Assembly: GCF_000003605.2 (NCBI RefSeq) | Contig: NW_003133348.1 | Coordinates: 374,114 to 399,560, forward strand | DNA length: 25,447 nt | Direction of reading: 5' to 3' | From: Saccoglossus kowalevskii | Taxonomy: Eukaryota > Hemichordata > Enteropneusta > Harrimaniidae | Made by a program: the position numbers and the translations under genes | Shown: positions 1 to 24,158 of the stretch, piece by piece | Numbering within the stretch: position 1 is the stretch's first letter | Layout: the number at the start of each line of letters is the position of its first letter | Notes under the pieces: model-generated | What the model saw: only the letters and a program-made list of their open reading frames with translations | The model's database searches: none | Told to the model about the DNA's origin: nothing

Positions 1-624
1 ATATGGAATGTTAACCGACTGAAATGTTATATCTGCTTGCCTGCATGGCGTGGAAATCTTGTGAGCAGCAAATAAATAAATATGTCAGCTTTCCAAGTGA
101 AAAAGCAATTATTGGGAACAGCATAAACATATATAGAAGAGGCTAATATTAATATTAACCGTAACTGCCAGAATGTATCAATCCGTCTAGAACATATACA
201 ATAATAAAAGCAACTAGCTTTTAAAATTGCATTGTAGCTTGCCCTAACAATATATACAGCCATTATAGAGAAAACATCGCTCTCTGCTTCACTTATAGCT
301 TATCAGAGGGAAAACTATTTGAATAAATGTACCCCTTATACCCACGTAGATATAAAACACTGGCTTGATTCAGTGCGAAAACGAAAGTACACACACAGGC
401 ACTGACAATACATTGGGCAGCATACAAAAGAATTTGGCATTATTATAATTAAATGTAGTAATATAATATACTATTGGCACGAGCTGAATTAATACTTCCG
501 TGTACTTTCGAGTGGGGTTGTGCAAGTAATGTCGATTACTGTGTTCCACTATTGTTAAGGATGATATTACAGTATTGTGCCAGGCTCGGACGCAAAAAAT
601 AAGACAACGGATCAACTGTATCAC
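1..624 (-). other. Intron 11 of copy A (partial)
   Basis: No exon-like sequence was seen. Positions about 526-580 match 8540-8595 in intron 11 of copy B (shared gtaatgt-gattactgtg...attacagta), so the duplication covers introns as well as exons. The foldback element in intron 11 of B is absent from the part seen here. Confidence 0.6.
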
Positions 625-3600
625 CTTTCAATGACACGTTTTTCTGGGGAAACTGCGGACTCTGACGTGTCAATGTGGGCATCACTAATGCGTCATAATC
701 ATTCAAAGAAGCATCATATTTCTTTCCAAGTTCTATTGCCAGATTTTTGCACTTTGCATATATCATTCCGCCGTAGTTGCGATTTAGATACTCGCCTGCC
801 AACATGTTTTGCTAGAAGAAAGGGTAAAAACAACTCGCATTTCAAGGGGAGATAGAGAGAGGGTTGGAGATTGAAACCACCGCACCACATTTGTATAACC
901 TTATCTCTGTATGAATAATTCAAAATAAAAATTTGCCACATTGACATGGATATGCGACTTCAGTTCCTTGTATAATGTTCATTTTACACTGTTGGATTAT
1001 GGGAATTTATGTTGAATAGATTATACTCTATTGTTTGTACATTGAAAGACACTACAGCCACAATTGTTATAACAACGTGAGTTATTTACCTTGACTCTAA
1101 CAGGCGCATCATTAGGCCTGGATTTGAAGGAGTGGTGAATGCTATCAAACAAGCTGGTTGGATGAAATCCTTTACTACCATAATTAAAACCTGTGACGTA
1201 TCAATCAAAATGATTACACACAATGCGAATCATACTATCATGCCAATGGCCAATCAAATCAATTTATTTTAAGTTGCAATACAAAGATGTACCTACCTCT
1301 CGAAAATGTTGAAACCGCGCCTTGTAATAGTATCCCGCGCCTTATTGTGCCACCAACTGAATATACAAACATAAGAATATGTAAATTATAATTATCACCA
1401 ACACGCTTGGTGTGGACACCATAGTAAGACAGTAAACAATATTGTTAGGTTAATATTTGTTTTTGCACCATAAGCTAATTTAGTATTTCTTATTCCACGT
1501 TTCACAATTTTTCAAACCATTCCATGACACGTGAATATTATTCCTGTACAAATAAGGTTATACTGACAATTTGTCAGCGATTACAGTGAATTTACTATAA
1601 TTACAGCAAAATACAATTGTTTGTACAATCTACCTGAATGCATAGGTATCGAAATCTCATCTACTGATGCACCAGTCTTGGTAAATTGTCTGGCAGCTTG
1701 TCTCACTATATCATCCACATCTTTATCAGACGAGGACGTACCAAACCCCTCCTTGACAACACCGATTTTTATTCCATTCAAATCCCGCGAGAGCTTACAA
1801 AATAATATTATGTGAAGAAGAATTATAATGGTAGTACAAACATGTGTGACTATGCTTTCATATACATAACTATAGCTGATTTGTAATAAAATTATATCGC
1901 TTGGAGACTCAGTGTTTTCGTGCATATAAAATCATGTTATTACTTCAACAAGTTATTAAATGTAAAGTTACAAAATATAAGAAGATGTTGAATTGGTAAA
2001 TTGTACAATATACTACATTGTTTAAGTCGTTACATCGGAATAACTCCACAAATATAGTTATATTACATACTTGTTTAGTGTATTCAGGTACTACTAAATC
2101 ACGTGGTTGTCTCGGATCCACTCCATCGTCGTATCCAGCAAGCACCTGACATATGACATACACAACTAGTATGAACAAAGTGATTGAAACATAATCGCTA
2201 CTATGTTGATTAGATTGCGGTTCAGCTGTGGAAAAGTATAATCAGTAAATTGCTGCACATACCTCTAATAGTAATGCACAATCATAAACCGTTTTCGTCA
2301 TTGGCCCTACATTGTCAAACGTGGACTCCAATGACAGTATACCGGTATATGGTACCAACCCAAATGTTGGTTTCAATCCCACAATCCCACACGATGATGC
2401 TGGACTACGTATGGAGCCTCCCTGGTCAGTACCAAGCGCCATATCAACTGCACCAACTGACACCTGAAACATTGATAATTTAATTGTTTAATTATTTTAA
2501 AAGTGTAAATACAAAAACTGTTCTACCCAGTCAATACAAAGTATAAAGAGCAACATAAATAAAGAAAATATATGAGGTAAATTACAAATTCGGAACATAA
2601 AACAACAAACTGGCGAATAAGTAATTGATAAGTTATATCACAACCACTCAAACAACTCTGACAATTGATCTACAAGAACAAAACAAAACAAGAGCACTAC
2701 AGTACATAGTCGCATCAGTAACAGAAAGAACTTCTTAATAAACATGAAGGTGGGCATCCTATTCTGCATGAGGCGCCCGAATTAATACTTTTTGTTATCT
2801 TATTTAACCACAAGATAATTGTATCTGTCCAAAATATGCTGGAATATATCCTATTTTTAAATCTGTATATGTACTACCCTTGTAGTTCGTATTCATCAAT
2901 TTCCAAAACAAAATATACTTACTGCTTACCAGTGTAACATTCATAGACGTATTGGCGGAGTATTACAATATTACAATAAATACCGACAGAGAACAAATCT
3001 GTTCTTGTCACTGAGCCCATCGCCAACAACATATAAATAACAGCATGTAATGCAATACATAACTCAGTTGTGCACAATTGTATAGGAGGAATTTTTTCCG
3101 GACGAAAAATTGTAAAAGAACAGATAACGTTTATACCAATACAGCACTACCAGTGCTAGATCCACCAGTCATTCTTGTTGTATCGTAAGGATTAGTTACT
3201 GGTCCATTAACAGACGTACAACTGCCACAAGATACACAGCAATTTTCGCAGGTTGATTTGCCGATGATACATCCACCTGTAAAACCACGAATGATATACA
3301 GACTAATAAGGTGCACATTTTACAAATTGCGAAGAGTATATTACACATTTAGAAATATCTGATTCTCCGTTAGAATTTTGAATTTATATAATATAATAAC
3401 CTTCTCCCAGTATCTTGGTAATTACAGTTGCATCATAGTCTGGTGTATATCCATCGAAAAGGCGACTTCCATTGCGTAAAGGTACACCGGCTATTGGTAT
3501 ATTGTCTTTGATAGCGATAGTTTTACCCGCTAGCTTGCCATCACTACTTCCCTTAATATCACAGCGCCAACACCTAATCGGTAATAAACAGTGGAAGAGC

Positions 3601-6600
3601 TATATGATATCAATATAAATGCTGTATATATACATACAACAGCAGTATTGTTGAATTAAAAAAATGTATACATATTCTATATAACAGGTAAAATATGATG
3701 ACATCAATCTTACAAGTTTTACATATAGATTGTTTATATCATGAGTTTTAATTTCTTTCATTGTAAATTAACAAAATAATGGCAAATTACAATATCGATA
3801 TAATCTAATTCATGCGCCTCACGTACTTCACTTTTAACATATTGTTCAAATAACAAATTACACGGTAACGCATACCATACGTACCATGCATTATGTGGGT
3901 TTTCTTCATTTTTCGGTGCCCAACCTGGCGTACGTGGATATATTACGGGTAGTTGTGGTTCTACGAAATCTTCCAGCTTGTCAAACATTTTCAGTGAGCT
4001 CTTAATTTCTTCTACACAATTAGAATAAAAAATAACTGTACTGAACACTATTTGAGGGGAAAGGAACTCGCGCAACTTCCTTGCTCTCCGCGAGATCTCG
4101 GGGCCATTTTCGTTCATCAAAAATGATCATCTTTTTCTATTTTTTTTAGAGATTGTAGATGTGGTATATATTAACAAGAATATACATTTAAAAGAAAAAA
4201 CGTTATGCGAAATCGCTGTGACCATTTCTCATGATTTATTCTACATTTTTCAAGAAAAAAAAAACGCGGCATATCTTCCAATTTATTCATAGTACTCATT
4301 TAAATCCTCAATAAATAATTAAGTCACTTAGCAGTCATGTTATGGCTGTGTCTAACATAACCTCGATGTATAATTAGTGTGACTTATGAACTTTCATAAA
4401 GTTTGATTTGCTTTAAAAAATCTTTTCCGTGAAGATATTTCGTGTGAATTTTGCTCCCGGAAAACCTCTACTACATCCTTAAATGACCGTGCACAGGAGT
4501 GGAAACTAAAATAGAGACCACACAACTAAATAGTTGCTTTGAATGCACTATATTTCCTAAACAATTTCTAGACATTCTAGCTGTATGGATTTGTTGAATC
4601 TTCACCAAAACGCCCAGCACCATGTGTACAACACAAAGTTAACTTTGTAGATTGTGCTCACGTGAGTGTATAAAGTGAGCCAAGTCATTTCAAACATACT
4701 ATACGTTATTTCGTGGAATTGCACACAGTCATGTAACGGCCGCCAATGTGCAAATTCTGCCGATAGTTATATATACAAAATGCTAAATTAACTACCTTGA
4801 TATTCCATTAGTTCATGCTGTTCAAAGGTAAATCCATAACTGTCTGCGATTTCAGCGACATCCGCAATAGTAGGTGCTTGTACAACGTGAGTTCTATACA
4901 CTGACACACAGCCAAAAAGAAAAAAAACATGTATAACTGTATATAGTCAAAGGACAATGAATATATAAATATATATATAAGGTGAACGACGTCCATTTTC
5001 TTAGATACAGTGAGCACAAGTCTATTAAAACATTCCTTAGCTGGGTACAATTGCTGATTTCAACAGCAGTAACATAACGCCATATATATTTTAATTTGTT
5101 ATACACGGACGGTAATCGACTGATGGTTTCTATTTATGTTACGCTTGATAGATTGATTAGCGGCATCATTGATTTAGCCAATCCTAACTCAGACTCACCC
5201 GCTAATTCAACCAGAATACAGGACATCGCGGGTATATCTAACACTGTGATATTCATGGTGGAGGGTAGTTGGATCATTCCAAAGTGAAAAACCCAAAAAC
5301 GTACAAAATCAGGAAGCATAGAATAGTATACCACGACCATAAATTAATTTGAATTAATGAGGGTGGTACGAAATTTTGCATGGGGGAGGGGATCTGCTGA
5401 CCATCCCTGGCGCGACTTTACTAGGGGTTCCGAGGGCATGATCCTCTTTAAAAAATTGAAATCTAGACCTTATGAAACGCTATTTCCTGCATTTTGAGGG
5501 GAAAATTTTGCTCACACAAAGGGTTTCAGCTTGATTTTAGGGGGCGACGCCCCCAACAATTTATCGAGGGGCGACCGCCCCTCTGTCCCCCTGTACCGCC
5601 ACCACTGCAGCATCACAAAATCAACATTCGATATGAAACATTTTCCAATAAGATCAATCGAGTTGAAACTCGGACTCACGGGTGTTTCGCGCATATTTGG
5701 GAAGGGGATTGACTGTGTAATGGGGAATTCTAAACATTATGTACTTCCCAAGTTTAACTTAGTTGCATGGAGTGCCTATCAGAAACAGGATTCGCTATAA
5801 TAATGCATGAATATTTAATGTAGTGAAGACAATAAATACAATCAGTATAGTACGAGCATATATAAGTTTTGCCCAAATTACTCAGCATTGAGCGTCCAAC
5901 TAAATTGTGTCAAAATTACAAATTTTGAGAGAAATCTACAAGAAAAGGAGGCAAACATTCCAAAACAAAGAAAAAACAATAACGAATTAGCATGACAAAA
6001 CAAGGGCGTATTTGTTGTATTGAACGCAAGGATATTTCTCATGATGCAAATAATAAACTGTCGTGTACTGTCGCTCACTGTGTTATTATGTTGGTTCTAT
6101 CGGTGTCAAAATACCCTCGCGTTCACGAATAAATAAACCGGTGTTTAGCGCTGCCTTTAATGACATGGATTAGTTAGATTGCTGACATAAAGTCATATCC
6201 TTGTTGTTGTTAACATACATCGAGCAAGCTGGGATTATCTATCAGTCACTGTCTCGAGTAGGACAAACAGTGGTACGACAAAAGCAAATATATTTTTAGG
6301 CACACCCCTTCCAAACGACGGTGTACAGGTGATAATAAATTTACTTTACCAATATTTACTATATGGGTCAGCCATCTTGAATACGGCTTGACTCATTCGG
6401 TCTCTTTCTTTAGTTCAAGCCGTATACAAGATGGCTGCGCCCATGTAGTAAATATCGTTTATTTTATTATAACGCCGTATTACTGTGTTAGAAACGCCGA
6501 TTCCACGCCGGTGTTTCTTGTTTACACACGTTCTTAGCCAGTGAGAACAAGGCTGTAGACGCTGATAGTATCAGTGAAACAAGTAGTATAACACAGTAGG

Positions 6601-7051
6601 CCACAGAAGGCCGGTTTACTCGGTAAATAAAACTGATTGATAAAACTTAGATAAAACTAATTGGGCAAACCGTCGATGTACTGCGTGATACATTTCACTC
6701 AAACTTTACCGATGTTATTTTTACTTACGGAAGTTTGAGTGAAGGTTACCGTTTTTAAAATTTAGTCTAGGAACTGCATAAAATAGGTTGTATGCAGATA
6801 AGTCAATATGTTTGCTGCATCTACTAGTCGGCATTTCCCGGCGCGGGTTATTACAGTTCACTCGTGGCAACAAGTGACTTTTGGAAACGAAAATATTTTG
6901 GTGTGAATTAAAGGCGCACCGCTCGGATTTCAGAAACACACGTGATTTAATGCTGGAGCCTCCGCTGTAGTCGATGTTGTTTAAACTATGGGTGCTTAAA
7001 CTATTAACTCATATGTACAAGCAATACAAAACCAATGTTACCTTCAGACAT
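1..7051 (-). CDS. Amidase copy A (exons 1-11; 3' end outside window)
   Basis: Multi-exon amidase-signature hydrolase that would cleave a carboxamide to acid plus ammonia or amine; substrate and location unknown. Exons lie at 7042-7051, 4796-4900, 3885-4011, 3401-3573, 3137-3276, 2263-2463, 2071-2145, 1634-1793, 1297-1356, 1090-1190 and 625-811. They join in one open frame of 446 codons plus one base. An N-terminal helical region (residues about 1-75) leads into the amidase core. Lys103 (AIKDN), Ser178 (GGSSTGSA) and Ser202 (DQGGSIR) are 75 and 24 residues apart, the family spacing. [15 protein letters not shown] and the N-terminal domain point to the Rhodococcus-type amidases rather than FAAH or GatA. 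The last exon (about 65 codons in B and C) must lie before position 1. No stop, frameshift or bad splice site was found, so this is the copy most likely to be functional. Confidence 0.87.
625..811 (-). CDS. Copy A exon 11, LVMPTLT segment
   Basis: 187 nt, phase 0 to phase 1, acceptor tcttctag and donor GTGATA. It encodes [15 protein letters not shown], then [19 protein letters not shown], the core strand that ends in the conserved P-T. The terminal exon that should follow is not found between 1 and 624, so intron 11 runs past the window edge. Confidence 0.88.
1090..1190 (-). CDS. Copy A exon 10 (101 nt)
   Basis: 101 nt, phase 1 to phase 0, acceptor tcacag and donor GTAAAT. It encodes [20 protein letters not shown] and ends PVRVK. 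The Y-G-x-K-G-x-x-P-x-S-L core is shared with copies B and C. Confidence 0.82.
1297..1356 (-). CDS. Copy A exon 9 (60 nt)
   Basis: 60 nt, phase 1 to phase 1, acceptor tattcag and donor GTAGGT. It encodes [19 protein letters not shown]. It was found by matching frame, phase and length to the exons at 9274-9333 and 17063-17122 (shared R/G-x-G-I-x-x-x-G pattern). The sequence is quite diverged from C. Confidence 0.72.
1634..1793 (-). CDS. Copy A exon 8, [11 protein letters not shown] segment
   Basis: 160 nt, phase 0 to phase 1, acceptor ttgtaag and donor GTAGAT. It encodes [18 protein letters not shown], then [19 protein letters not shown] and SIPMHS. The L-K-G-x-x-I-G-V-x-x-E-x-F pattern is a standard amidase core strand. 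Confidence 0.9.
2071..2145 (-). CDS. Copy A exon 7, [11 protein letters not shown] segment
   Basis: 75 nt, phase 0 at both ends, acceptor tatgtcag and donor GTATGT. It encodes [16 protein letters not shown] and ends PEYTKQ. The GYD-x-x-DPRQ stretch follows the LLLEV helix in related bacterial amidases. Confidence 0.88.
2263..2463 (-). CDS. Copy A exon 6, nucleophile serine
   Basis: 201 nt, phase 0 to phase 0, between acceptor tgtttcag and donor GTATGT. It encodes [18 protein letters not shown] with the nucleophile Ser202, then [20 protein letters not shown] and [15 protein letters not shown]. This is the most conserved block of the amidase fold and the best-supported exon of the copy. Confidence 0.93.
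3137..3276 (-). CDS. Copy A exon 5, amidase signature cis-Ser
   Basis: 140 nt between acceptor ttttacag and donor GTATAA, phase 1 to phase 0. It encodes [11 protein letters not shown] (usual family form GKTNM/E), a Cys-rich patch CCVSCGSC, and [19 protein letters not shown]. The first Ser of the SS pair is the cis-Ser (Ser178). Absent from copy B. Confidence 0.92.
3401..3573 (-). CDS. Copy A exon 4, catalytic lysine
   Basis: 173 nt between acceptor cgattag and donor GTTATT, phase 2 to phase 1. It encodes WRCDIKG, then GKTIAIKDN with the catalytic Lys103, then [11 protein letters not shown] and [12 protein letters not shown]. The IKDN Lys is the general base of the Ser-cisSer-Lys triad. This whole exon is missing from copy B. 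Confidence 0.9.
3885..4011 (-). CDS. Copy A exon 3, PRTPG...ENPHNAW linker
   Basis: 127 nt between acceptor ttgtgtag and donor GTACGT, phase 1 to phase 2. It encodes [16 protein letters not shown], then YPRTPGWAP and ENPHNAW. The last segment is characteristic of the Rhodococcus-type amidases and joins the N-terminal domain to the catalytic core. The last Trp codon is split by the intron. Confidence 0.87.
4796..4900 (-). CDS. Copy A exon 2, N-terminal domain
   Basis: 105 nt between acceptor gtgtcag and donor GTAGTT, phase 1 to phase 1, 34 whole codons. It encodes the start of the helical N-terminal domain, with [16 protein letters not shown] and ending LMEYQ. The counterparts at 11570-11674 and 20801-20905 have the same length and phase. 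Confidence 0.8.
5374..5607 (+). repeat. GC-rich dispersed repeat, copy 1
   Basis: An island of G- and C-runs in AT-rich DNA, sharing several blocks in the same order with 18379-18570: ttttgcat, atctgctgacca/atctgctcacca, cacaaagggtttcagctt, gggcgacgcccccaa and a gccaccactg/gccgccactgg end. The orientation is the same in both. Short frames across it are low-complexity and do not look like real protein. The family is not recognised. Confidence 0.75.
6352..6455. repeat. Imperfect palindrome (foldback) with about 42-bp arms
   Basis: Arm 6352-6393 and the reverse complement of arm 6412-6455 agree at about 90%, with single-base gaps, around an 18-base loop. Each arm carries agccatcttg / caagatggct and acggcttg / caagccgt. 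Weaker pairing extends outward through gataataaa / ttattata to about 6310-6495, so the full element may be about 185 bp. Probably a small non-autonomous foldback element. Confidence 0.75.
7042..7051 (-). CDS. Copy A exon 1 (mini first exon)
   Basis: Ten-base coding exon, ATG TCT GAA G, followed by donor GTAACA. It ends in phase 1 and completes a Val codon with exon 2, giving M-S-E-V-Y-R-T. The surrounding sequence (acaaaaccaatgttacc on the plus strand) matches the first exons at 12567-12579 and 13326-13335, which supports the choice. Too short to stand on coding evidence alone. Confidence 0.65.
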
Positions 7052-7402
7052 CGTGTACCGTAGTCGTGTATCTATGCGTCAAATATGTCAAAGTGCACTA
7101 TTACAAGATACACATTGAGGTCACACATCAGCTAACGTAAACGTCAGCATTTTGTTGTGTTCATATTTACTGAACACTCAAATACTCGTGACAGTGTTAA
7201 CAAATTGATTCTAGGGTATGTAGAGTTTCATAATATGAACATAATAGACTATATATGGCTTATTGTAATTGAAGAAACGAAACGGGATGACATACATAAT
7301 AAAAATTAAACGGTAATCAAAGAAAATTGGTTTTATACGTACAATAATTACAAAAATATTACAATATACATGTATATTTAAAAATAACAATATTTTAATT
7401 GG

Positions 7403-7501
7403 CCAGTATATTCACCCCTAAGTTGTGTATATACCTTCATAAAACATTTGCCGAAAATAACGGGATTTTAATTACAAAACGGTACGTTTCGCTAATTACA
7501 G
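7403..7501. repeat. Direct repeat, unit 1
   Basis: Shares ccagtatatt, gtgtatata, cataaaacatttgccgaaaa, gggattttaatta and gtttcgctaatta in order with 7576-7674. The units are offset by 173 bp at about 80% identity. This is a local tandem duplication just downstream of copy B. Confidence 0.8.
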
Positions 7502-7575
7502 ATAATCAGAAATCTGTAATCAGCAAAACAAGAGTCTTACACGTACAATATTCACAACTGTCAGACAAAACTTCA

Positions 7576-7674
7576 CCAGTATATTTAGCTTTCAGTCGTG
7601 TATATAACTCCATAAAACATTTGCCGAAAATAATGGGATTTTAATTAGTAAATGGCTCGTTTCGCTAATTATAG
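7576..7674. repeat. Direct repeat, unit 2
   Basis: Second unit of the 173-bp-offset duplication. It differs from unit 1 mainly by scattered substitutions (for example taacggg against taatggg) and ends just before a TAAATAAATAAA tract. Confidence 0.8.
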
Positions 7675-7726
7675 AATAATTATTAATAAATAAATAAATT
7701 AATTCTATCGAACTAGAAAACATTTG

Positions 7727-7732
7727 TTTATT
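7727..7732 (-). terminator. Possible poly(A) signal of copy B
   Basis: AATAAA on the minus strand, 15 nt beyond the copy B stop codon. That would give a very short 3' UTR. AATAAA is common by chance in DNA this AT-rich. Confidence 0.3.
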
Positions 7733-7746
7733 CATCAACCTAAATA

Positions 7747-7937
7747 TTATTTGTACAATTGTTCATAGGCATAAGCAACTTTCAAAACAGTACTCTCATC
7801 AAAGTGCTTTCCCACAATCATCATGCCGACAGGAAGTCCATCTACTTTGTTACCAGTGTTAATAGTAATGGCGGGATGACCTGTGAAATTGAAGCCACCG
7901 AGGTTGGACACGTTGTTATGTAATGCAGTGTTCAGAT
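7747..7937 (-). pseudogene. Copy B exon 12 (terminal exon, stop at 7747-7749)
   Basis: Acceptor acctgtag, phase 1. It encodes [14 protein letters not shown], then [16 protein letters not shown] and AYEQLYK, then TAA. The F-x-x-T-G-x-P-A-I and GLP-x-G-x-x-x-V-G motifs are the standard amidase C-terminal block. The exon itself is undamaged and is the best guide to what copy A carries beyond the window. Confidence 0.88.
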
Positions 7938-8042
7938 CTACAGGTAATATGAAGAGTATACAGTATAATTGATAAACTCGTTGTGTCAGTTTGATGAACA
8001 TGTTCGAACATGTATGCGTTATAATACGGTATAATATATAGT

Positions 8043-8436
8043 ATCAGAGGTTAATTGGGGTTTGCAACGCGCACAGTACTGTATGGTATGGTGACTTCAT
8101 GCCAAGATCCCATCCAAGTCTCATCTCGTAGATAACGAGACTGATGGTATAACCTTCTGACATGACAGGCGGTTTGTAATAAAACAATATAACATGTATT
8201 ACCACATTCATAGTGAAAAATGTAATACATCGAAAATGTATAGAAAATAAAATTATCGTAATCCGTCATATCGTGAGCTGCTATTTTGATCAACCTGGAC
8301 ATCCCAATATCCAAGTTACCTCGAGCATGCGTATTTGCATTTTTCTGAGTTAGAACACTTATGCGAGAGCGAGATTGAAACGGGATCTTGGTATCGTGTC
8401 ACCGTAGTTGCAAACCCCAAGTAATGTACCTCTGAT
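8043..8436. mobile_element. Foldback/MITE-like element in intron 11 of copy B
   Basis: 394 bp with terminal inverted repeats of about 70 bp. The left end starts atcagaggt and the right end finishes acctctgat. Inside, ggggtttgcaac, ggtgac and ccaagatccc recur as gttgcaaacccc, gtcacc and gggatcttgg near the right end. The left copy has an extra duplicated gtatggtatgg stretch. The middle is AT-rich with no transposase, so it is non-autonomous. Flanks are TA-rich and a target duplication cannot be called safely. Confidence 0.82.
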
Positions 8437-8673
8437 AAAATATATAATATGATATATAATATAATGTGATAATCAATCTTAAATGGGGCCAGCTATACTC
8501 AAATTTATACTTTAGTTGTGTCTTTCAAATTGGTCGCGAAAGTAATGTGGATTACTGTGGTCCTCTATTATTACGAGCATATTACAGTAGTGTGTATTTA
8601 TATTGCGCGGGGCTTACATGAGAAAATACTAAAATAGAATAACTGAATCAGATTTACTCTGTCTTACTCCCAC

Positions 8674-8861
8674 CTTTCAATGACATGTTTTTTCTGAGGG
8701 AACTCCGGGCTCCAACGTGTCAATGTGGGCATCACTAATACGTCACAATCATTCAAAGAAGCATCATATTTCTTTCCAAGTTCTATTGCCAGATTTTTGC
8801 ACTTTGCATATATCATTCCGCCGTAGTTGCGATTTAGATACTCGCCTGCTAACACGGTTTC
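8674..8861 (-). pseudogene. Copy B exon 11 (1-nt insertion)
   Basis: 188 nt where A and C have 187. It encodes [15 protein letters not shown] and [16 protein letters not shown], then shifts frame because the plus-strand T-run at 8688-8693 has six T where copy A has five. The last few codons before donor GTGGGA are out of frame. In the intron close to the exon start lies a run of about 12 G (8873-8884). Confidence 0.85.
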
Positions 8862-9059
8862 CTAGAAGAAGGCGGGGGGGGGGGTTGCTATAAACATGAT
8901 TAGTACTATCATAACCAGTACATGACACCACAGTTGTATAACCTTATTTCTGCATGAACAATTTACAATGAAATATGGCCCATTGACATAAATATTCAGT
9001 TCTTTGTGCCTTTTTCATTTTGCACTTTTATATATGATGTGTTAAAATAGTTTGTTTAC

Positions 9060-9160
9060 CTTGACTCTAACAGGCGCATCATTAGGCCTGGATTTGAAGG
9101 AGTGATGAATGCTATCAAACAAGCTGGTTGGATGAAATCCTTTACTACCATAATTAAAAC
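9060..9160 (-). pseudogene. Copy B exon 10
   Basis: 101 nt, nearly identical to copy A exon 10 ([20 protein letters not shown]), with the same acceptor tcacag and donor GTAAAC. Intact in itself. Confidence 0.82.
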
Positions 9161-9273
9161 CTGTGACGTATCAATCAAAACGATTACACACAATATGAAT
9201 ATAACTTTTTGTCAATGGCTAATCAATTAATTTTAAATATTGTTCCAAGATGTGAACACGATAAAGTACCTAC

Positions 9274-9333
9274 CCCTTGGAAATGGAGAAACCGAGCCGT
9301 GTAAAGCTATTCCGAGCCTTATTGTGAAACTGA
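9274..9333 (-). pseudogene. Copy B exon 9 (60 nt)
   Basis: 60 nt, acceptor ttttcag, donor GTAGGT, phase 1 to 1. It encodes SFTIRLGIALHGSVSPFPR, which bridges copies A and C: LGI-x-x-HG is shared with C, TIR and the SV-x-x-F-x-R end with A. Intact in itself. Confidence 0.75.
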
Positions 9334-9489
9334 CTGAAAATACGAACATAAGAATATTTAAACACAGTAAGATGAAACACTTTGACACCGAAGGAAAATT
9401 AACAATATTCACTTGTTAAACTAATATTTGTCAATGTCCCACTACCTACAATAATATTAAAACAAAATACAATTGTTTGTACAATCTAC

Positions 9490-9637
9490 CTGAATGCATC
9501 TCATCTACTGATGCACCAGTCTTGGTAAATTGACTGGCAGCTTGTCTCACTATATCATCCACATCTTTATCAGACGAAGACGTACCAAACCCCTCCTTGA
9601 CAACACCGACTTTTATTCTATTTAAATCCCGCGAAAG
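9490..9637 (-). pseudogene. Copy B exon 8 (12-nt deletion)
   Basis: 148 nt instead of 160. Four codons (I-S-I-P in copy A) are missing between V-D-E and M-H-S, in frame. The rest, [18 protein letters not shown] and [19 protein letters not shown], matches copy A closely. Confidence 0.85.
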
Positions 9638-10104
9638 CTTGCAAGGTATTATTATATAAAGAAGAATTATGATGCCAGTGAATGTGATTATATTCAATTG
9701 TTTGTTGCTTGTTCAGTATAAAGTAATATGAGGTTATTACAAAGATACTGCAAAGTATACACGCAGACAATAGAGCGGAAGTCGATGCGAAATACAAAAC
9801 GTTTAGAACATATTTAACTTCTTTGTGTGTGCTCCGGTCAAACCCTGGGGGCAGCCATGTTTGTTTTTATTATTAGAGGACGCTTACGCGCGTAATCGTT
9901 CCATATTTGGAATTCGCGTTTCATAATATGGTAATGATGAAAATACTCAGTGCAATACCGCAACATTACGGCACGCTGTAACTTATGGCGTCACGGTGTC
10001 ATATGTATAATACCAGAGTATACAAAACGAAGAATTCACATCATTTGTCTCTCGAATAATACACATAATTAATTTTGTAATTCCCACTACATAGAATGAC
10101 ATAC

Positions 10105-10179
10105 TTGTTTAGTGTATTCAGGTACTACTAAATCACGTGGTTGTCTCGGATCCAATCCATCGTCGTATCCTGCAAGCAC
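10105..10179 (-). pseudogene. Copy B exon 7
   Basis: 75 nt, acceptor tatgtcag, donor GTATGT. Almost identical to copy [17 protein letters not shown] ... PEYTKQ. Intact. Confidence 0.85.
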
Positions 10180-10296
10180 CTGACATATGACATACACAAA
10201 TAGTATGAAGATAATAATTGAAACATAATCGCTACTATGTTGATTAGATTGTGGTTCAGCTGTGGAAAACAATGATCAGTAAATTGCTGCACATAC

Positions 10297-10497
10297 CTCC
10301 AATAGTGGTGCACAATCATAAACCGATTTCGTCATTGGCCCTACATTGTCAAACGTGGACTCCAATGACAGTATACCGGTATATGGTACCAACCCGAATG
10401 TTGGTTTCAATCCCACAATTCCACACGATGCTGCTGGACTGCGTATGGAGCCACCCTGATCAGTACCAAGCGCCATATCAACTGCACCAACTGACAC
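10297..10497 (-). pseudogene. Copy B exon 6, nucleophile serine block
   Basis: 201 nt with [18 protein letters not shown] and [20 protein letters not shown], differing from copy A by only a few residues. Donor GTATGT. The nucleophile Ser is kept although the exons with the other two triad residues are gone, so the loss is probably recent. Confidence 0.88.
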
Positions 10498-13389: not shown

Positions 13390-13399
13390 CGTGATGGCC

Positions 13400-13483
13400 A
13401 TTAAACTTATCGTGATGTATATTCACCATACTGTGATGTCCATTCACCATATGGTGATGCCCATTCACCATACTGTGAGCTCC
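13400..13483. repeat. 21-bp tandem repeat, 4 units
   Basis: Units 13400-13420, 13421-13441, 13442-13462 and 13463-13483. The last three share attcaccata-tgtgatgtcc with few changes and the first is more diverged. The third unit contains the perfect palindrome caccatatggtg (13445-13456). The array begins about 10 bp upstream of the TATA box of the orphan exon. Confidence 0.8.
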
Positions 13484-13489
13484 ATTTTT

Positions 13490-14829: not shown

Positions 14830-15029
14830 TCAGTTGGCATCTTGTGATTGTTCATATGCAAATGCAACTTTGAAAAGTGTACTTTCATCGAAATGTTTTC
14901 CAACAATCATCATACCAACCGGCAGACCGTCTGTTTTGTAACCAGTATCAATAGAAATTGCTGGATGACCAGTTACATTGAATGGAAATAGAAGATTCCC
15001 CCCGCTGCTGCGGCACGCTGCCGTGGCAT
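14830..15029 (-). CDS. Copy C exon 12 (terminal, stop TGA)
   Basis: 200 nt, acceptor tgtttcag, phase 1. It encodes [33 protein letters not shown] and [10 protein letters not shown], then TGA at 14832-14830. Slightly longer than in copy B because of a Ser/Gly-rich insertion after the start of the exon. Confidence 0.9.
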
Positions 15030-18000
15030 CTGAAACACAAGAGCAAAACTGATTAAAGGAAAAGTAATTATGCAAATTGGTTGTGTCATTGTAATGGTTC
15101 AGTATAACAAAGTATTTTGCTGATGAACCTATATGACTGGCGATGATGGATATTACAAAACTAAAAGAACTAATTATTAGGCAGACTAGCACAACTTATA
15201 TAGCATTATTTAAAATATGGATTTGTCATGCATTTCAATAAATCTATACGGATTCATTCCAATATATATTTAATCATATTCATTTAGACCGAACAATTCT
15301 AATCTGCTGTATACTAGGCTGAAATGTTATCATTTCCTTGACATGAAAACTGAATTCTAGTGAGGTAATACAAAATCACTTCAGGTGTAGTAATTCCTGA
15401 ATATCAAACGTGCTTTTAGATGCTCTATTTTGTCAGTCTAATTCAAGACATTCGTTTATTGAAATAAGTTGATTTTCCCAAATTGACCCCTTTCGAAATG
15501 ACGCCATTTTTTCATGCTATTCCTTTTCCTAAAGATTTCGATGACAAACATATTTCTGAAAATGCAATCTCTTTTTTTGACAACACTTCAATTATCATAT
15601 AAATATGCTAAACAAATCACTTTTGGCAACTTTCATAAGCACTGTCTGACTAGTTACTCGCCACAATGGTTAAAAAAATAGTAAGTGAACTTTTACGATG
15701 GGGTCACAATATTGGGCTGCAATGGCCAATTAACCACCCCGAAGCAAATTACTTTTTCATAAAAATATATCACAAAAAGTTGTTGTCAGAGACAGCTATG
15801 AACCTGGGATCCCCGACTATAATGATTGATAAATAAGCCAACAACAAGACGACGACGGCGACGACGACGACTATTTCTTGTAATTTCTTTACCACAACAG
15901 GCAAGTTAAATGATTTCATGATTTCAAAATGATTTCACATGTAACACAAAATACTAAATATTAGATCGATTTGTCAATGTTGACTACATACCATTTAGAG
16001 ATGCATTTTTGGGAGGCAATTTAGGTATTGTCTTTGTTAACGTGGGCATTACCAGGACGTCACATTTGTTTAACACTTCGTCGTATTTCTGGCCGAGTTT
16101 TCTTGCCATGTTCTGAAACTTTGCATACATCCTACCGCCATACTGACGGCTCAGATATTCGCACACCATCAGCGATCGCTATAAATATAAATAAACAAAT
16201 CAGTACGTGTTAACATATACACTGTATGTGTTAGAATTAATTTAGTTGTATGAAAATGTTTTCAATCGCCTTCGATCACGTATAAGTGATCAATTGATAA
16301 TTACTATTTTTTTTAAACTAATGAAGTAATAATATTCAAAGGTCAGTGCACATAATGTAGAACGAATGCAAAGTTGTAGAAATGCACAATTTGACAAAAT
16401 CATTAAACACTAACATGTGAACTACTACATGCTGCACTACTAATATAACAAATCCAAAACAAGTAAACGTTTTAAAAACAGAACACCTGTTAAATGTTAA
16501 GAGAATTCGTTTTTCTATTGATTTTAATTCAATAGTTAAAATACGTCTTTTTGAAAAGACCTGTCATGGCGGTTGAACTGGAATATCTACATCCGCTTGG
16601 ATGTGTATATTGGTATGGACTATTTGTAAAATTGAAATCATCACTCTGAACCCCTGTGTGATTGAATGTAAATCATACAAACAGAGGAAGTAGATTCTGG
16701 AGTTGTTAAGCTGAAATTCATTTATATAAATCATTGCTATTTAATCATTATTTAACTTAGTAGTGATTTTAGAAAACTATTTTGTTAATCTTACCTTGAC
16801 AGTTAAAGAAGCGTCATCAATGTTAGATTTGAAAGAATGGTGAATATTTTGGATCAAACTTGATGGATAATACCCTTTTTGTCCAAAACTGAGTCCTATT
16901 TCAAAATAGGTAAAACACTATTTATACACACGTTTATAAGTCGTCAACGCTTCTCATCACAGTATTCTAATTCTATTTCAATTAAACATGAACTATTACG
17001 TGCTAATTGAAAAAGTGATATTTTAGTGATATAATAGTATAATGACACAAGCACAGACTCACCATGCAAAACAGGATGTTTCAAACCATGCATAAATATA
17101 CCAAGTCCAATTATGCTTCCAACTGGCATAAAATAAACAGAAATATCGAGGAATTGAGGACAGTTGGTAATAATTAATTTCACAAAACTGAATCTCCTCC
17201 TGAGTGAATAAATTAGAATAAGTCACTCTTTCCGTTTATTGAGATAATGATGATTTTACGAAACTAATAAAAGCGACGTCACAATATTGTGGAATATTTG
17301 CATTTGACCCAAAATTATTATACAATAATACTTCATAGATTGATCAATAGCAGATACTACACATGTTCGGTAGTAGTTAGTAACTTATTCTGAAGGGCTG
17401 ATACCACTTTTCCAATGTATGCCTTCAGGTATTCCAGCAATTTAGAATTTGTGACGGGTATAATAGCATCTCTTCCATTACAGGGATTAGTCTTTAAGAT
17501 TGCGAGTCTGAAAATTAGTGAAAATTGCAAAAATCGCTATTCAATTAAGAATAATAACAGAACATAACCTCACCATCATTGTCAATGGGAATACCCAAAT
17601 TCCCATAAATGATTTGTTGTATGATACTGCTTGACAAATGTGTCGCTAATAAAATCAGTTATGCAAAGCGACAACACAGTGATCCAGCAAGTTGTGTTCA
17701 CAGTAGTTGGTAATATGCAAATAAATACACGCTGAATAGAAATCATACCTGAATGCATTGGTATCGATATGTCCACCACTGAAGCCCCAGTTTTAGGGAA
17801 ATTTCTCAAAGCTTTCATCACGTTATCATCAACATCTTTCTCCGAAAATGGAGTATCAAACCCCTCCTTGAGAACGCCAATTTTCATCCCAGTCAAGTCA
17901 CGCGAAAGCTTGAACAAGAAAGTAAATATTATTTTAATTTTATTTTTAAAGCCATCAAGTATTTAAGATTGGAAATTCCAAACATGATGGATAGGAAATA

Positions 18001-21000
18001 ATAGGTCTGCCGTGAAAATTATTCTGAAAATGTCTGCACATATATGAATTGTATTCAACACGCAATGACTGCTACAATTACATGTTATTGTTATCTGTCA
18101 CTATCTCTAGTAATTTATTGTACAATATTTTAACAACGTCATAGTTTTTCTGAAATTAATCTGTTCTCGTATGCTGTGTATTAATATATTCAATGGACAT
18201 GGTTCAACTTGAGAAGAGTATGGGAAAAACTGTACCTGCTTAGTGTATTCTGGTACAGTCAGATCTCTTGGCTGTCTTGGATCAAGGCCATCATCGTAAC
18301 CAGCAATAACCTGTTGATAAAAAACACTTTATTCATACCAAAACAAATGTTTTATTTGAACTGCTGAATTACACAAACTTTTGCATTTTGGGGGTGAAAT
18401 CTGCTCACCAACTTTACGCCGAAGGGGTCCGGGGACATCCTCCCCTTTACCCTCTGAAACGATATGTCGTGCATTTAAAGGGGCAAAGTTTGCTGACACA
18501 AAGGGTTTCAGCTTTATTTTGGAGGGGCGACGCCCCCAACCTCCCCCCCCCCCTGTGCTGCCGCCACTGGAATACTATATAGCTTGGAATGATAAACATT
18601 ATGGTTTCGTGTGATTAACGAGACGGAATTCAACATAAAGATTTACCTCTAACAATAATGCGCAGTCATACACTGTCTTCGTCATTGGGCCAACGTGATC
18701 TAATGTTGGTTCTAATGATAGTATACCCGTGTAGGGAACCAACCCCCACGTAGGTTTCAGTCCCACAATACCACACGACGAAGCTGGCCCGCGAATGGAT
18801 CCTCCTTGGTCAGCGCCTAATGCCATATCAGCAGCGCCTGTTGACACCTGAATAATGATGCGGAATAATACAACCATTTAATTTATTTACTTGTTGTGGC
18901 TGACATTTTAACGATAAAATTACTTTAAAAATAGGAATCGTGCCTACATTACATAACGACTCATGTTTTGACATGAAATCCAAAGTTACGTTCTACTTAA
19001 TAAAACATTTTTGTCAATTATTATGGCATAATTTGTTATACGTAGCCATAGAGTCAATAATATTCACCCCGGTGCAACTAGATATATTGGGTAAAAAAAT
19101 GACATTATACACACATTGAAAGCCATAAGGGCATACAATCTGTTTCCTGTGGCCGCCGCGATAATGTAGTTTTTTGGATAACTCACAGACCCGAGTTGGA
19201 CAAATGTGGCTAGTCATAGGTGTATACCCTCCATATCCTAATTATGCTAAATATGTATGGTGTGTGGTGAAGTCAATATGTGACAATTCCTCCCCGGAGA
19301 AATGCGTAACTCGTGGGAATGCTTCGTTGTTGATGTCGGACATCTTGTTTAATTACAGACAGTATCTTACGCATGCTCAGTAGAGTGTTTATTACACTAC
19401 TTTGGGAACTGTCCCCAAAGTGACGTCATTTCGGAAAAAGATGGAAATCCTCGTTTTGGAGTAACGGCGTAAAATTGCGTAACCGCGACACGACTATGGG
19501 TGATCGGTCATGTCACATAAAATTTGGCTGTGGTGCGTTATAATATATAATTAGTGTGATATAAACACATTTATACCAATACAGCACTACCAGTACTAGA
19601 ACCACTAGTCATTTTTGTTGTATCGTAAGGATTAGTTACTGGTCCATTAATTGAGGTGCAGCTGCCTCCAGATGTACACAAATTTTCACAGGTTGATTTT
19701 CCGATGATGTGACCGCCTGTATAAAAATAGAGATTACATATTGCTACTAAAATAGAAAAAAACGCATCCAAGATACTTGTTTTAACCTGAAGTTATAACA
19801 GAAAAGAAATGTGTTTTGCTGATAATCTAATTAGCTTAAACTCTGTTTAGTAAATTGAAGAAAATACTCATCTGCATCAAGTATCCTAGCAACGACAGTG
19901 GCATCATAATCTGGTGTGTATCCATCAAAAATGCGACTTCCGTTACGTAAAGGAACCCGGCTATTGGTATATTGTCTTTGATAGCGATAGTTTTACCTGC
20001 AAGCTTGCCATCACTACTACCCTTAATATCACAGCGCCAACACCTAATGCGGTAACAGAATATATATATAATTTATATATAGTATATAATATATTATACA
20101 GTAGTTATACGCTAAATAAATGCGTACGTCTACAAAGCATTTCTTCTTTCAATTGTGTTGTGTCCCGTAATTATATGTCGTGACATGCGTATGTTAAATT
20201 ACAAGTGTAAATGTTGACGAACATACAGTAATTATTGTCACAGAAATTATGCTCCAGGGTTGGGACTACGTGATTGGGAAGTGGCCACTGAGGAGGCCCG
20301 GTTGAACACATGCACATGTTGAGCCTTAACCTTAAAGTAAGGTCGATGTCGCATTCATTTGTGAATACATTTTATTTTGGCCAGTGGACTTCCCCCCCCC
20401 CCTTTTTAGAACAAAGTGACATAGTCGTCAAGGGTGTTCAAAGCTGCAGGTAGCGTTTTGACATGGGGACTAAGCAATCGTGAGTCCAACGCACATGTAT
20501 ACACTGACATACGTACCATGCATTGTGTGGGTTTTCATCTGGTTTCGGCGCACTCCCGGGTGTGCGTGGATATTTCACTGGCAGTTGTGGTTCTATGAAT
20601 TCTTCCAGTTTGTCAAACACCTTCAAGGAGTCACATATTTCCTCTAAAACATAATATTGACTGAACTCATACCACACTTTCACTTTTTCGATATATTTAA
20701 AACTTTAAAATTCAACCACTGCATGATTTGAAGACAATCCTCATAGAAGACAGACAAATCCAACAAGCTGTAAATCACGTGGTTCCTTTCAATATCTTAC
20801 CTTTATAATCTTCAAGTTCAGAATCATCAAAATGTAATCCATAACTGCTGGAAATAGAAACAAGTTCATCCAAGGTCGGTGGCCGTACGGTCGGTGATCT
20901 ATACACTGAAATAACAACCGTAAAACATGCATTCAAACACTATACAATTAAATACATTGAATGCCATGTAACTATAGAGGACGCGTGATTACTGTGACGT

Positions 21001-24000
21001 ATAGAAACTAACACATTAAACTTTGCATACGGTGCTGTATATAAGGTTCATCCCAATATTGCAATATTCATTAAAAATATTTCTGTGCAAGGATTTTATT
21101 CATATTTATAAATGACATGTTTATATTGATAAAAATCACCATTTGCATTGGTGACATATTTAATTTGTATTCGTGAAATTCCAATCTTTATTCCTACTAA
21201 AAATCTCAATTTCTATTCGTAAAACCCTCATTCGTATTCGTTAAACTTCCATTTATATTCTTAGCTATAGCCAACAGATGTAAAAACTGCACGACAGCAA
21301 TATACATAATTTAATGGAGCTATAACAGAGTATAGTTACTATGGGAATATACATCATAATACTGTGCATTAGCTCTCGCAATCGCGTACTTAGTCATTTT
21401 TACAAGGTTCGCCATTTTTGATGTCACGTGATAATTATGTAAACAATGTCTGTCCAGTTTGTGCGAACTTGCACCTCTATACTTAGTCTTTTGATATATA
21501 TAACCTAAATTACTGTTCTGAACGAGACAACAGACAGAGAATGTTTTATTTAAAAACGTCACAAAACCTTCTCGCTACCTTAATGAGCAATGATGCTTCC
21601 TATCATGCACCATGTATTAAAGGGGGACCGCTCAATCCCATGGATTGCACCAAAGAATCATGGGACACTATTGTGTATGTTGTTTACAAAGTTAATCTAT
21701 CTTTTGTTATCCATTGTAATTTTAATCCAGAAAGTAAATTTGTTGTGAGATTAGGCTTAACTGGAAGTGCCCCTTTAAATATAAGTGTGAGTATTGATGT
21801 GTACGATATCACATTACAGGGAATGAAACTACAGTGCACACACGGCAGGATATAATGTAACACGGTAGCAGGATATGGAATTTGGTCTGGGAGCTTTGCA
21901 CGACAAGCAGCATAGCATTATAGCATAGAAACCCGTGTTAAAATTCCGTGTACAGGAGCGCATTATATGATACCGTGCAACGCGATAACATTATTCGAAC
22001 TCTAGTCGGAAAGCCATGTACAATAATCACAATAGCATTATAGAATAGTGACGACAGCGTACTGTCGCGTAATCAAGCACGAAATCGCTACGTTAATGCA
22101 AGTTCATATTTCCTGGTCACATGTCTTATTTTAATGTATTGGTGGTAAACGCTAAAATTCACAAACAAAAGGGCTTCTGACGCCATTTACGTGAAGATGT
22201 TAGTCTATGTCAAGAGAAACTATGTTCTGATTGGCAATTGCGTAATCAACTGTGCAGTTTACTGTAGGTGATATGTTTGGCATAATCTTCGAAACGGACA
22301 ATGCGTTGATTTCACAGCAGTTTCAGAGTTTTATCTCTTCATTATTATAGTTACTGTAATAGTGATGATACACCGGGGACAATTTAATGAAAAATAGTAC
22401 GTGACTGACGTATTTCTGCCCTCAGGTTACTGTGCATTTATTGCACCATACCTAATTGCTATTTGAGCATTAACGAATCACAAATCGCAAACCGTTGTTG
22501 CTTGTTTTGGGTGTTTTGGCTTCGTCTGTCGGCATACATGACAGCGTCGTCGTACAGGCCGGACCCTAAATCCGAGGTGCAACCCTATTCACAAAATGGT
22601 AAAACGGTTTAAATGCTAATACAAACCCACAAGACATAACGAGTCCTAATTGCTGTCAACAGAACCAATAGCACATAATCTTTGCTAGAAGATATTTTGT
22701 TTGGCCAAAGAATTATATTGTATCTTCGACCAGTTTTACTGCCTGGCGTACAGATGTAATATACACTCTCTCCACTTTTACCAGTTTTCGAATAGCGTTT
22801 GAATAGTCCATGGCTTGAAAGAGCGCTCCCGTGTTCATTTGTTACATATGCACATGATTCTACGAATACAAATACGAATATAATTGAAGTTTTTACAAAT
22901 ACAAATACAAATATTTCTATTGTACGCCTTCTATGCTCTCTTATCGCATATTTTACAAATGATTTACGAATACAAATGCAAATTTCACAAAGCTGTGACG
23001 CTTTTGGAAGTTTCGTGAACATAAATATGTCATTTATAATATTAATATGAATTCTTGCACATATGATTAACCATTTGAAATGGAGGGGAATCTTTTCACG
23101 TGTATCCAGAACTTTTTTATTTATACTTTGTTTTCAAAATAGCGATATATGTATTAATACCAAGTTGTATTTTATTTTTAAATCATTTACATTTAAAGCG
23201 CCTATAGCTGTAACTATCGATCTTTTCATTTATTTTTATTGAAAAAAAAACCCTAACAATTCCTGTGTCACCGGTGTCAATTTGTAATGACTATTACCGA
23301 AATGCGGACATTGAACTTACAGCATACAGTATATGCTCTATACTTCTGTTTGTACAATAAATCAGTTGCAGGTTTACAGAGGGCGCCATCTATTGAAATC
23401 CAAAATTTGACAAACGAACCCGTGGGATTACGGTACATGCGTGTGCCCTGGGCGGAATGTCAATTACGTTGCCATCTTGAGAGGCTAAGCCTCTCTCTGA
23501 CGGACTCTCGCTGATGATTTTATGTGCCATATCCCATAATAGTGTGCGTCGGTCTTCATCATTTTTCAAGTTTACGGTCCACACTGCGTGACCGAATTTA
23601 ACAAAATGGCGATGACTCGACCCTTAGTTTTCACCTTGCATTTTTAGTGATATTATATTGGCATTGTGTACTATCACGCGAAATAAGTAATATTTCAGTA
23701 ATATTTTGTCATCAGTATGAAGCTATATTAAAACAAAAACATGTTCTAAATAACAGCTATTGTCGCTTTAAATATATGGTGAACACATTTTTGCCGCCTT
23801 GCAGAATTGTTCCCAGCGAATTTCGCTCACAATTTACCCCAAGACGAGTGGTTCAAGTTGTCCAGAGAAAATATGCGTTACCACAAAAGTCTTTTCCATG
23901 ACAATAAGACACGAATAAACAAACCTGTCGGTGAGAATTTTACTGAAAATTATGGGCTGAGTTGCGGCTTACTAGTATTTGCAGTACAGGCCGAACATAC

Positions 24001-24158
24001 CGAGGTTGCACTCAGCTGGTACTATGAGTGACCTGGGTATAATGAAGTCAGTGCACAAGACAGTGGAGAAGTATAAGTGAGACGTCATTACACGAAATCT
24101 GGTGTTATGAAGTTATAGCCATACGCATCAGCTTACCTTGAGAACTATGACTTGCCAT
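14830..24158 (-). CDS. Amidase copy C (12 exons, two lesions in exon 4)
   Basis: Full-length amidase-signature gene, diverged from A and B. Exons lie at 24137-24158, 20801-20905, 20517-20643, 19872-20043, 19577-19716, 18647-18847, 18236-18310, 17749-17908, 17063-17122, 16795-16895, 15992-16178 and 14830-15029. With exon 4 counted at its usual 173 nt the sum is 1551 nt, 516 residues plus stop. Catalytic positions would be Lys107, Ser182 and Ser206, with the canonical 75/24 spacing. Two defects sit in exon 4: a 1-nt deletion near 19958 and AT instead of GT at the donor (19871-19870). Splicing at the GT four bases further restores the overall frame but replaces about 28 residues after the Lys. 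It could be a young pseudogene, a gene with altered exon 4, or a sequencing error. Confidence 0.8.
15848..15871 (+). repeat. (GAC)n microsatellite in intron 11 of copy C
   Basis: Eight GAC triplets with one GGC interruption. Simple repeat only. Confidence 0.85.
15992..16178 (-). CDS. Copy C exon 11
   Basis: 187 nt, acceptor tttatag, donor GTATGT, phase 0 to 1. It encodes [20 protein letters not shown] and [15 protein letters not shown], and ends in a split Asp codon completed by exon 12. Confidence 0.9.
16179..16794 (-). other. Intron 10 of copy C
   Basis: About 616 bp of AT-rich sequence. No coding or repeat structure seen. Confidence 0.6.
16795..16895 (-). CDS. Copy C exon 10
   Basis: 101 nt, phase 1 to 0, donor GTAAGA. 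It encodes [20 protein letters not shown] and ends SLTVK. The acceptor was chosen as tgaaatag (not the later ctcag) because this keeps the phase and length of copies A and B. Confidence 0.8.
17063..17122 (-). CDS. Copy C exon 9
   Basis: 60 nt, acceptor tatgccag, donor GTGAGT. It encodes [19 protein letters not shown]. Phase 1 to 1, as in the other copies. Confidence 0.82.
17749..17908 (-). CDS. Copy C exon 8
   Basis: 160 nt, acceptor tgttcaag, donor GTATGA. It encodes [38 protein letters not shown] and SIPMHS. It retains the four codons lost in copy B. Confidence 0.9.
18236..18310 (-). CDS. Copy C exon 7
   Basis: 75 nt, acceptor tcaacag, donor GTACAG. It encodes [17 protein letters not shown] and ends PEYTKQ. 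Confidence 0.88.
18379..18570 (+). repeat. GC-rich dispersed repeat, copy 2
   Basis: Second copy of the element at 5374-5607, same orientation, inside intron 6 of copy C. It includes cacaaagggtttcagctt, ggggcgacgcccccaac and a long C-run (18542-18553). Copy C has it in a different intron from copy A, so the two insertions are independent of the gene duplication. Confidence 0.75.
18647..18847 (-). CDS. Copy C exon 6, nucleophile serine block
   Basis: 201 nt, donor GTAAAT. It encodes [39 protein letters not shown] and [16 protein letters not shown]. The nucleophile Ser is in DQGGSIR. Confidence 0.92.
18848..19576 (-). other. Intron 5 of copy C
   Basis: About 730 bp. Plus-strand frames around 19174-19383 show no recognisable domain. 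A short hairpin, actttggg-aactgt-ccccaaagt, lies near 19399-19421. No other feature. Confidence 0.5.
19577..19716 (-). CDS. Copy C exon 5, amidase signature
   Basis: 140 nt, acceptor ctatacag, donor GTATAA. It encodes [12 protein letters not shown] and [19 protein letters not shown]. The usual GGSS reads SGSS here, a Gly to Ser change just before the cis-Ser. The Cys-rich patch of copy A is reduced. The 3' half of the exon is about 95% identical to copy A. Confidence 0.9.
19872..20043 (-). CDS. Copy C exon 4 (frameshifted, donor changed)
   Basis: 172 nt against 173 in copy [20 protein letters not shown] and IKDN with the Lys are intact. A base is then missing in the AGVP region near 19958. 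The end reads gatgcag followed by ATGAGT, so the normal GT donor is absent. The next GT (19867-19866) would extend the exon 4 nt. The shifted frame stays open all the way there and rejoins exon 5 in frame. Confidence 0.8.
20517..20643 (-). CDS. Copy C exon 3
   Basis: 127 nt, acceptor tgttttag, donor GTACGT. It encodes [35 protein letters not shown] (Gly-Ser where A and B have Gly-Trp). Confidence 0.88.
20801..20905 (-). CDS. Copy C exon 2
   Basis: 105 nt, acceptor tatttcag, donor GTAAGA, phase 1 to 1. It encodes [20 protein letters not shown] and ends SELEDYK. Same length and phase as A and B although clearly diverged. Confidence 0.82.
21180..21252 (-). repeat. Degenerate cgaata/cgaaat tract
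   Basis: attcgtga, tattcgta, attcgtattcgtt recur, the reverse complement of the tacgaatacaaata tract at 22860-22990. Low-complexity repeat. Confidence 0.5.
21618..21700 (+). repeat. Dispersed repeat segment, copy 1
   Basis: gctcaatcccatggattgcaccaaagaatcatggga followed by ttgtttac matches gcaatcccagggattgcaccagtgcgtcatggga ... ttgtttac at 24430-24498. The 104-residue frame over it shows no domain. Confidence 0.6.
22860..22990 (+). repeat. Hexamer-like tacgaa/tacaaa repeat tract
   Basis: tacgaatacaaatacgaata, then acaaatacaaatacaaata, then acgaatacaaatgcaaat. It produces FVFVFV and NTNTN runs in opposite strands. The 137-residue minus frame (23022-22609) that spans it has no recognisable domain in its remainder. 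Confidence 0.65.
23298..23666. repeat. Intron 1 segment shared with copy B (with insertion)
   Basis: Counterpart of 12156-12310. Blocks 23298-23357 and 23566-23666 align with copy B; the roughly 200 bp between them (with gagggcgcc and a gagaggc-taa-gcctctc hairpin at 23479-23495) have no match there. Confidence 0.6.
23805..23930 (+). CDS. Candidate internal exon, unknown gene
   Basis: 126 nt between acceptor ccgccttgcag and donor cg/GTGAGA, phase 1 to 1, 41 whole codons without a stop. It encodes [20 protein letters not shown] and [20 protein letters not shown]. The composition is mixed and soluble-looking, unlike the surrounding low-complexity frames, and both splice sites are good. No family is recognised and no partner exon was identified on the plus strand. 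It may belong to a nested or exonised element. Confidence 0.35.
24137..24158 (-). CDS. Copy C candidate exon 1
   Basis: 22 nt, ATG GCA AGT CAT AGT TCT CAA G, donor GTAAGC, phase 1. Joined to exon 2 it reads M-A-S-H-S-S-Q-V-Y-R-S-P, and the whole reading frame then totals a multiple of three. It lies about 3.2 kb upstream of exon 2 and about 470 bp beyond the intron 1 segment shared with B. The choice is inferred from phase and donor, not from similarity. Confidence 0.5.

Follow-up and report, generated by a model that had tools for sequence, protein, structure and literature searches.

Is the amide metabolism of animals built on more amidase lineages than those by which it is generally known, and if so, how would a further one have arrived? 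Amidase-signature enzymes of animals are usually discussed as fatty acid amide hydrolases (FAAH) and as GatA, the A subunit of glutamyl-tRNA amidotransferase. A further lineage of bacterial type in an animal-like genome would widen known animal amide metabolism, and the array described here would offer a case in which old transfer or differential loss could be tested. The stretch of DNA analyzed (the window; 25,447 nucleotides) carries three amidase-signature genes in tandem, which an earlier note had read as an expanded array of Rhodococcus-type enzymes.

Our main reading, to which we assign a probability of roughly 0.78, is that a tandemly duplicated nuclear gene encodes a hydrolase of the PRK07235 type, resembling the amidase of Protein Data Bank (PDB) entry 3a1k, with one copy working and two decayed. 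Among the titles and abstract openings listed by searches of an open-access library, none reports a PRK07235-type amidase in an animal, a silence that is weak evidence of novelty. Penicillin amidases belong, we presume, to a family other than that of the array. It is penicillin amidases that the consulted parts of two papers describe in a ctenophore and a coral (PMC6005172, PMC4878875).

ARCHITECTURE OF THE ARRAY

Three paralogous, intron-containing genes, designated A, B, and C, are arranged head to tail along the minus strand from position 20905 down to 625. Exon limits were set by homology between the copies together with splice sites, and the exons were then joined by script. AG acceptors and GT donors bound the exons of copies A and C, including an AG acceptor at exon k of copy C. 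The exon tables, splice sites, and homology thus bear out the proposed head-to-tail, one-strand arrangement, although the span first given to it, 1–24158, was too generous: the exons occupy 625 to 20905 only.

Within the window, copy A has ten exons, copy B nine, and copy C eleven. Copy A (625–4900) comprises exons a–e at 4900–4796, 4011–3885, 3573–3401, 3276–3137, and 2463–2263, followed by exons f–j at 2145–2071, 1793–1634, 1356–1297, 1190–1090, and 811–625, with 442 codons open. Copy B (7747–11674) retains exons a, b, e, and f at 11674–11570, 11066–10940, 10497–10297, and 10179–10105, and exons g–k at 9637–9490, 9333–9274, 9160–9060, 8861–8674, and 7937–7747. Copy C (14830–20905) runs from exons a–f (20905–20801, 20643–20517, 20043–19868, 19716–19577, 18847–18647, and 18310–18236) through exons g–k (17908–17749, 17122–17063, 16895–16795, 16178–15992, and 15029–14830). 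A candidate small exon lying between g and h was rejected, since the alignment to 3a1k requires none at that point.

The claim of identical exon lengths holds for copies A and C at nine of their ten shared exons (a, 105; b, 127; d, 140; e, 201; f, 75; g, 160; h, 60; i, 101; and j, 187 nt). It fails at exon c, which measures 173 nt in A and 176 nt in C, and in copy B, where exons c and d are absent, exon g falls short by 12 nt, and exon j carries one extra base. The first coding exon was not identified in any of the three copies. Exon a begins with TG in A (4900) and C (20905) and with TT in B (11674), and a start codon split as A followed by TG is possible in A and C. To the right of the array, in 20906–25447, neither an exon nor a fourth copy turned up in a tblastn search with the proteins of A and C (E up to 1).

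Several other features occupy the window. A direct repeat of about 100 nt closely follows the 3′ end of copy B (7403–7506 and 7576–7680; 85% identical, 173 nt apart), a tandem repeat with a 21-nt unit in 4.6 copies spans 13391–13486, and a dispersed repeat, possibly the remnant of a mobile element, recurs at 5467–5557 and 18449–18540 with 86% identity. On the minus strand, a 174-codon open frame at 22609–23133 contains simple-repeat FVFV stretches and has no Pfam match up to E 0.1. Ten of 95 open reading frames, all outside the exons, were compared with Pfam; two matches at E 0.03–0.04, under the curated cut-offs, were taken as chance. The window yields no Rfam match at gathering scores and no tRNA.

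FAMILY ASSIGNMENT AND CATALYTIC RESIDUES

The family of the array was assessed with protein profiles and with solved structures. The NCBIfam model NF005565 (PRK07235 amidase) matches copy A from position 3 at E 4.5e-161, a value that excludes chance, and outscores the next model by about 300 bits with copy A, with copy C, and with an artificial chimera of copy A with the last exon of copy B, a molecule absent from the window. The chimera scores 611.6 bits against a cut-off of 545. Copies A (536.9 bits) and C (541.8 bits) fall just below it because A is read without its last exon and C includes an out-of-frame stretch. The second-best model, gatA, reaches 242 bits with A, 239.9 with C, and 288 with the chimera, short in every case of its equivalog cut-off (TIGR00132, 481.1 bits).

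Solved structures give the same order. The best match to copy A is 3a1k (337 bits, E 1.9e-99), followed at a distance by GatA chains (183 bits or less, best E 1.1e-52), by 6dhv, which leads the chains named fatty acid amide hydrolase (94.7 bits, E 6.6e-26), and by FAAH1 (about 59 bits, E 3.7e-15). These homology scores support the assignment of the array copies to the PRK07235, or 3a1k, type of amidase and to neither FAAH nor GatA. We take 3a1k, like its companion entry 3a1i, to be an amidase from Rhodococcus; the label of Rhodococcus-type amidase is thus upheld by the 3a1k match and by NF005565 as top model.

Alignment to 3a1k locates the active site of copy A, with residues counted from the first full codon read. 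The lysine (motif AIKDN) lies in exon c (3401–3573), the cis-serine (GGSS) in exon d (3137–3276), and the nucleophilic serine (DQGGSIR) in exon e (2263–2463). Lys99, Ser174, and Ser198, presumably the catalytic residues of the amidase signature, align with residues 96, 171, and 195 of 3a1k; 3a1i shows alanine at the position of the last serine. The spacing of 75 and 24 residues expected for both A and C is found in A, whereas C as joined has all three residues spaced 76 and 24. The anticipated ENPHNAW motif and N-terminal region ahead of the amidase domain are both present in copy A, with 3a1k aligned from its residue 14.

STATE OF THE INDIVIDUAL COPIES

Copy A is the one likely working gene of the array. 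All ten of its exons in the window are open, and nothing in its readable part is damaged; its first exon is unseen, and its last lies outside the window, where the assembly sampled directly to the left reads N.

Copy B is, by the state of its exons, a pseudogene. Between its exons b and e there is no match to residues 78–181 of copy A, and hence neither exon c nor exon d, so that it lacks both the catalytic lysine and the cis-serine.

The case of copy C turns on exon c (19868–20043). Residues 78–106 and 107–132 of copy A match it in different frames, which meet at 19956, just past the lysine motif. The site equivalent to the donor of A reads AT, and a GT sits 4 nt downstream. With the existing GT, the protein is back in frame after exon c and the assembled exons run uninterrupted up to the final stop, but everything between the frame change and the donor is scrambled. 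Copy C could instead be intact, with the frameshift a sequencing or assembly error and the array comprising two working copies; the frame change amounts to a single base adjoining a run of G, and the remaining exons are open and constrained. In the unshifted frame, however, the AT in place of a GT donor would be a second departure in the same exon, and with the existing donor only the segment beyond the frame change, up to the end of exon c, is out of frame. We consider an intact copy C unlikely and regard it as a probable pseudogene. The frame switch at about 19956 thus undercuts the view of copy C as a sound protein. The proposed three-copy expansion of an enzyme survives as a count of copies and is weakened as an expansion of function, given that B is a pseudogene and C probably one; with B and C decayed, the array would be shrinking rather than growing.

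DIVERGENCE, CONSTRAINT, AND PROBABLE GENE CONVERSION

Nei–Gojobori comparison of A with C, with exon c omitted, gives dN 0.224, dS 1.447, and dN/dS 0.15 over 380 codons; for exons f and j taken singly, dS is saturated. The comparison of A with B, which omits exons c, d, and k and the ends of g and j, gives dN 0.060, dS 0.159, and dN/dS 0.38 over 320 codons, the last value including substitutions from the pseudogene phase of B. A comparison of exon k between B and C, at 4% identity, was out of register and was set aside. These ratios show that the proteins of the copies were under constraint through most of their past, and the dS values make the split of A from C (about 1.4) older than that of A from B (0.16).

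One tract departs from this pattern. In the first part of exon c (3487–3573 in A and 19957–20043 in C), only 3 of 87 nt differ, all at third codon positions; the remainder of exon c has 17 differences in 84 nt, exon d has 22 in 140, and exon b has 30 in 127. The tract and the rest of exon c differ at Fisher p 0.0006, a value for a tract picked after inspection. The near-identity points to gene conversion between A and C. The frameshift of copy C sits at the edge of the tract.

GENOMIC CONTEXT

The window forms the right end of contig C2505 (399,560 bases) in an assembly of 572 Mb and 4830 contigs. To its left, the sampled bases from 325,000 to 374,113 are all N, as are samples at 300,000, 250,000, and 1–5000; samples at 200,000 and 100,000 are not. 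Further copies may exist in the N region or elsewhere. The profile searches of the assembly scored the best candidates only, which makes their counts lower bounds. For NF005565, at least 17 matches were found, 15 of them within the window and the other two on contigs C1468 and C1617; searched exon by exon, no single match exceeds the cut-off. For the amidase-signature profile PF01425, there are at least 14 (seven in the window, one on C1468, four on C1617, and two on C126).

The exon on C1468 is FAAH1-like, with solved FAAH1 chains as its top matches (E 1.6e-24). The gene on C1617 was named FAAH2-like by reading its sequence; in the PDB it matches urethanases and amidases best, and FAAH1 ranks below them. 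A GatA-like gene lies on C126 (tblastn with two GatA chains). By homology, then, the assembly has FAAH1-, FAAH2-, and GatA-like genes apart from the array. At about 6500–9900 of locus L106, near the FAAH2-like gene, long open frames look retroelement-like by eye.

The description of the genome as animal-like is borne out indirectly, by the 572-Mb size of the assembly, by intron-rich genes, and by the FAAH1-like exon that matches solved FAAH1 chains best. The same context disposes of bacterial contamination of the assembly, which has nothing in its favor beyond the bacterial distribution of the family. The copies are split into 9–11 exons with AG/GT boundaries in a 399,560-base contig of a 572-Mb assembly, and the introns exclude contamination to the point of leaving it virtually no probability.

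EVOLUTIONARY ORIGIN

The trees bear on two histories. An animal ancestor may have taken the amidase gene from a bacterium long ago, with introns gained and the gene duplicated afterward; or an old eukaryotic amidase of the PRK07235 type may have descended vertically, surviving in certain animal lineages and disappearing from others. Consistent with transfer, every relative among the matches listed in both protein-searched collections has a bacterial source: the best 80 of 351 relatives in a GTDB scan are 42–50% identical, and plasmid relatives reach 49.5% among the matches listed. The collections hold no eukaryotic genomes, however, so that bacterial-only matches are expected under either history. 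In viral contigs, 32 pattern matches were inspected and none is a relative.

Two full-length trees, both rooted on GatA, place the copies among bacterial rows. In the quick tree, of 85 rows (the best 80 of the 351 relatives plus five more), A and C join each other (100), stand beside the bacterial locus L020 (82, flagged as long branches meeting), and fall inside a starred set of 33 of the 85 rows (97). In the careful tree, which keeps 34 of the 80, adds five rows, and leaves out L020, they sit on a branch of 1.92, grouped with 25 of 35 bacterial rows (93/100), and are attached at a weak fork (82/0) inside that group. A third tree, of the signature region, has 22 rows, 14 of them from the 80 and one, FAAH1-like, that fills under half of the columns. 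There the array copies lie outside the genome's own FAAH-like pair (97/94) and also outside the GatA trio (92/89), and the split of these five rows from the rest reaches only 57/60. In the protein search and tree against FAAH and GatA, a comparison chosen beforehand as one that could overturn the proposal, the array copies are thus inside neither group.

Across 200 bootstrap trees from the careful and the 22-row analyses, the bacterial rows never lie on one side of a branch. Such a result favors transfer and speaks against vertical descent, although an early transfer to eukaryotes would look alike. Forcing the bacteria into one clade costs 3.77 log units, and at p-AU 0.0519 that clade is not rejected at 0.05; the bootstrap of the careful tree is unsettled and its root very distant (4.3). 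Transfer is further burdened by the length of the A/C branch (1.4–1.9), by a nearest neighbor that changes from L020 to the weak fork with the tree, and by at least ten introns, which need time. Those ten or more introns count in favor of vertical descent, as does a long branch near the base of the bacterial group and not near any single species. Vertical descent also draws on a parallel within the pathway: the part of PMC3323583 consulted argues that the nitrile hydratases of eukaryotes are ancient and underwent losses. Against vertical descent, the trees include no further eukaryotic member of the PRK07235 type. Taken together, the trees lean toward array copies nested among bacteria. Transfer is to us a tentative reading, somewhat short of even odds, and vertical descent a possible one that we rate a little lower.

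The consulted part of PMC3323583 also calls eukaryotic amidases distinct from prokaryotic ones. The array, if animal, does not fit that distinction as stated there.

PREDICTED FUNCTION AND COMPARISON WITH KNOWN AMIDASES

The substrate of copy A is guessed from its relatives. A nitrile hydratase alpha motif occurs within the fetched flank (up to 4 kb) of 10 of 80 bacterial loci, with L001 and L002 among those ten being near copies. In L001, the sole locus checked with Pfam, the alpha and the beta N-terminal domains of nitrile hydratase are confirmed. Because the motif lies near 10 of the 80 relatives, our best guess at a function is the hydrolysis of small amides, which copy A probably splits. 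Its product would be a soluble amidase that acts on primary amides, small or aryl, and releases acid and ammonia through a Ser–cisSer–Lys mechanism. The nitrile hydratase profile PF02979 has no match in the assembly, but the controls were equally silent. For animals, the consulted portion of PMC3323583 favors loss of the eukaryotic-type nitrile hydratase. In an animal with such a loss, the array enzyme would take its amide substrates from elsewhere.

A fuller history can be imagined, in which an animal domesticated a bacterial nitrile-pathway amidase, acquired ten or more introns, and duplicated the gene in tandem with gene conversion, and still uses it to split amides from the environment or from symbionts as the additional copies decay. 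As a whole, we think this sequence of events improbable.

Among known systems, the animal enzymes FAAH1 and FAAH2 share with the array the amidase signature and the Ser–cisSer–Lys triad. They differ from it in PDB scores far lower than that of 3a1k, and the genome has its own separate FAAH-like genes. GatA likewise shares the signature and provides the second-best NCBIfam model, but at under half the score of NF005565 and with a separate GatA-like gene on C126. The amidase of nitrile hydratase clusters, represented by L001, comes closer. The alpha motif of nitrile hydratase has no match in the six frames of the window, whereas in L001 the alpha and beta genes adjoin an amidase 48% identical to copy A. 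The 3a1k/3a1i amidase, a bacterial protein, aligns with residues 17–439 of copy A, from its own residue 14 and with the N-terminal region included, at 41% identity; past the IPMH motif, in exons h and i, the window copies show little conservation.
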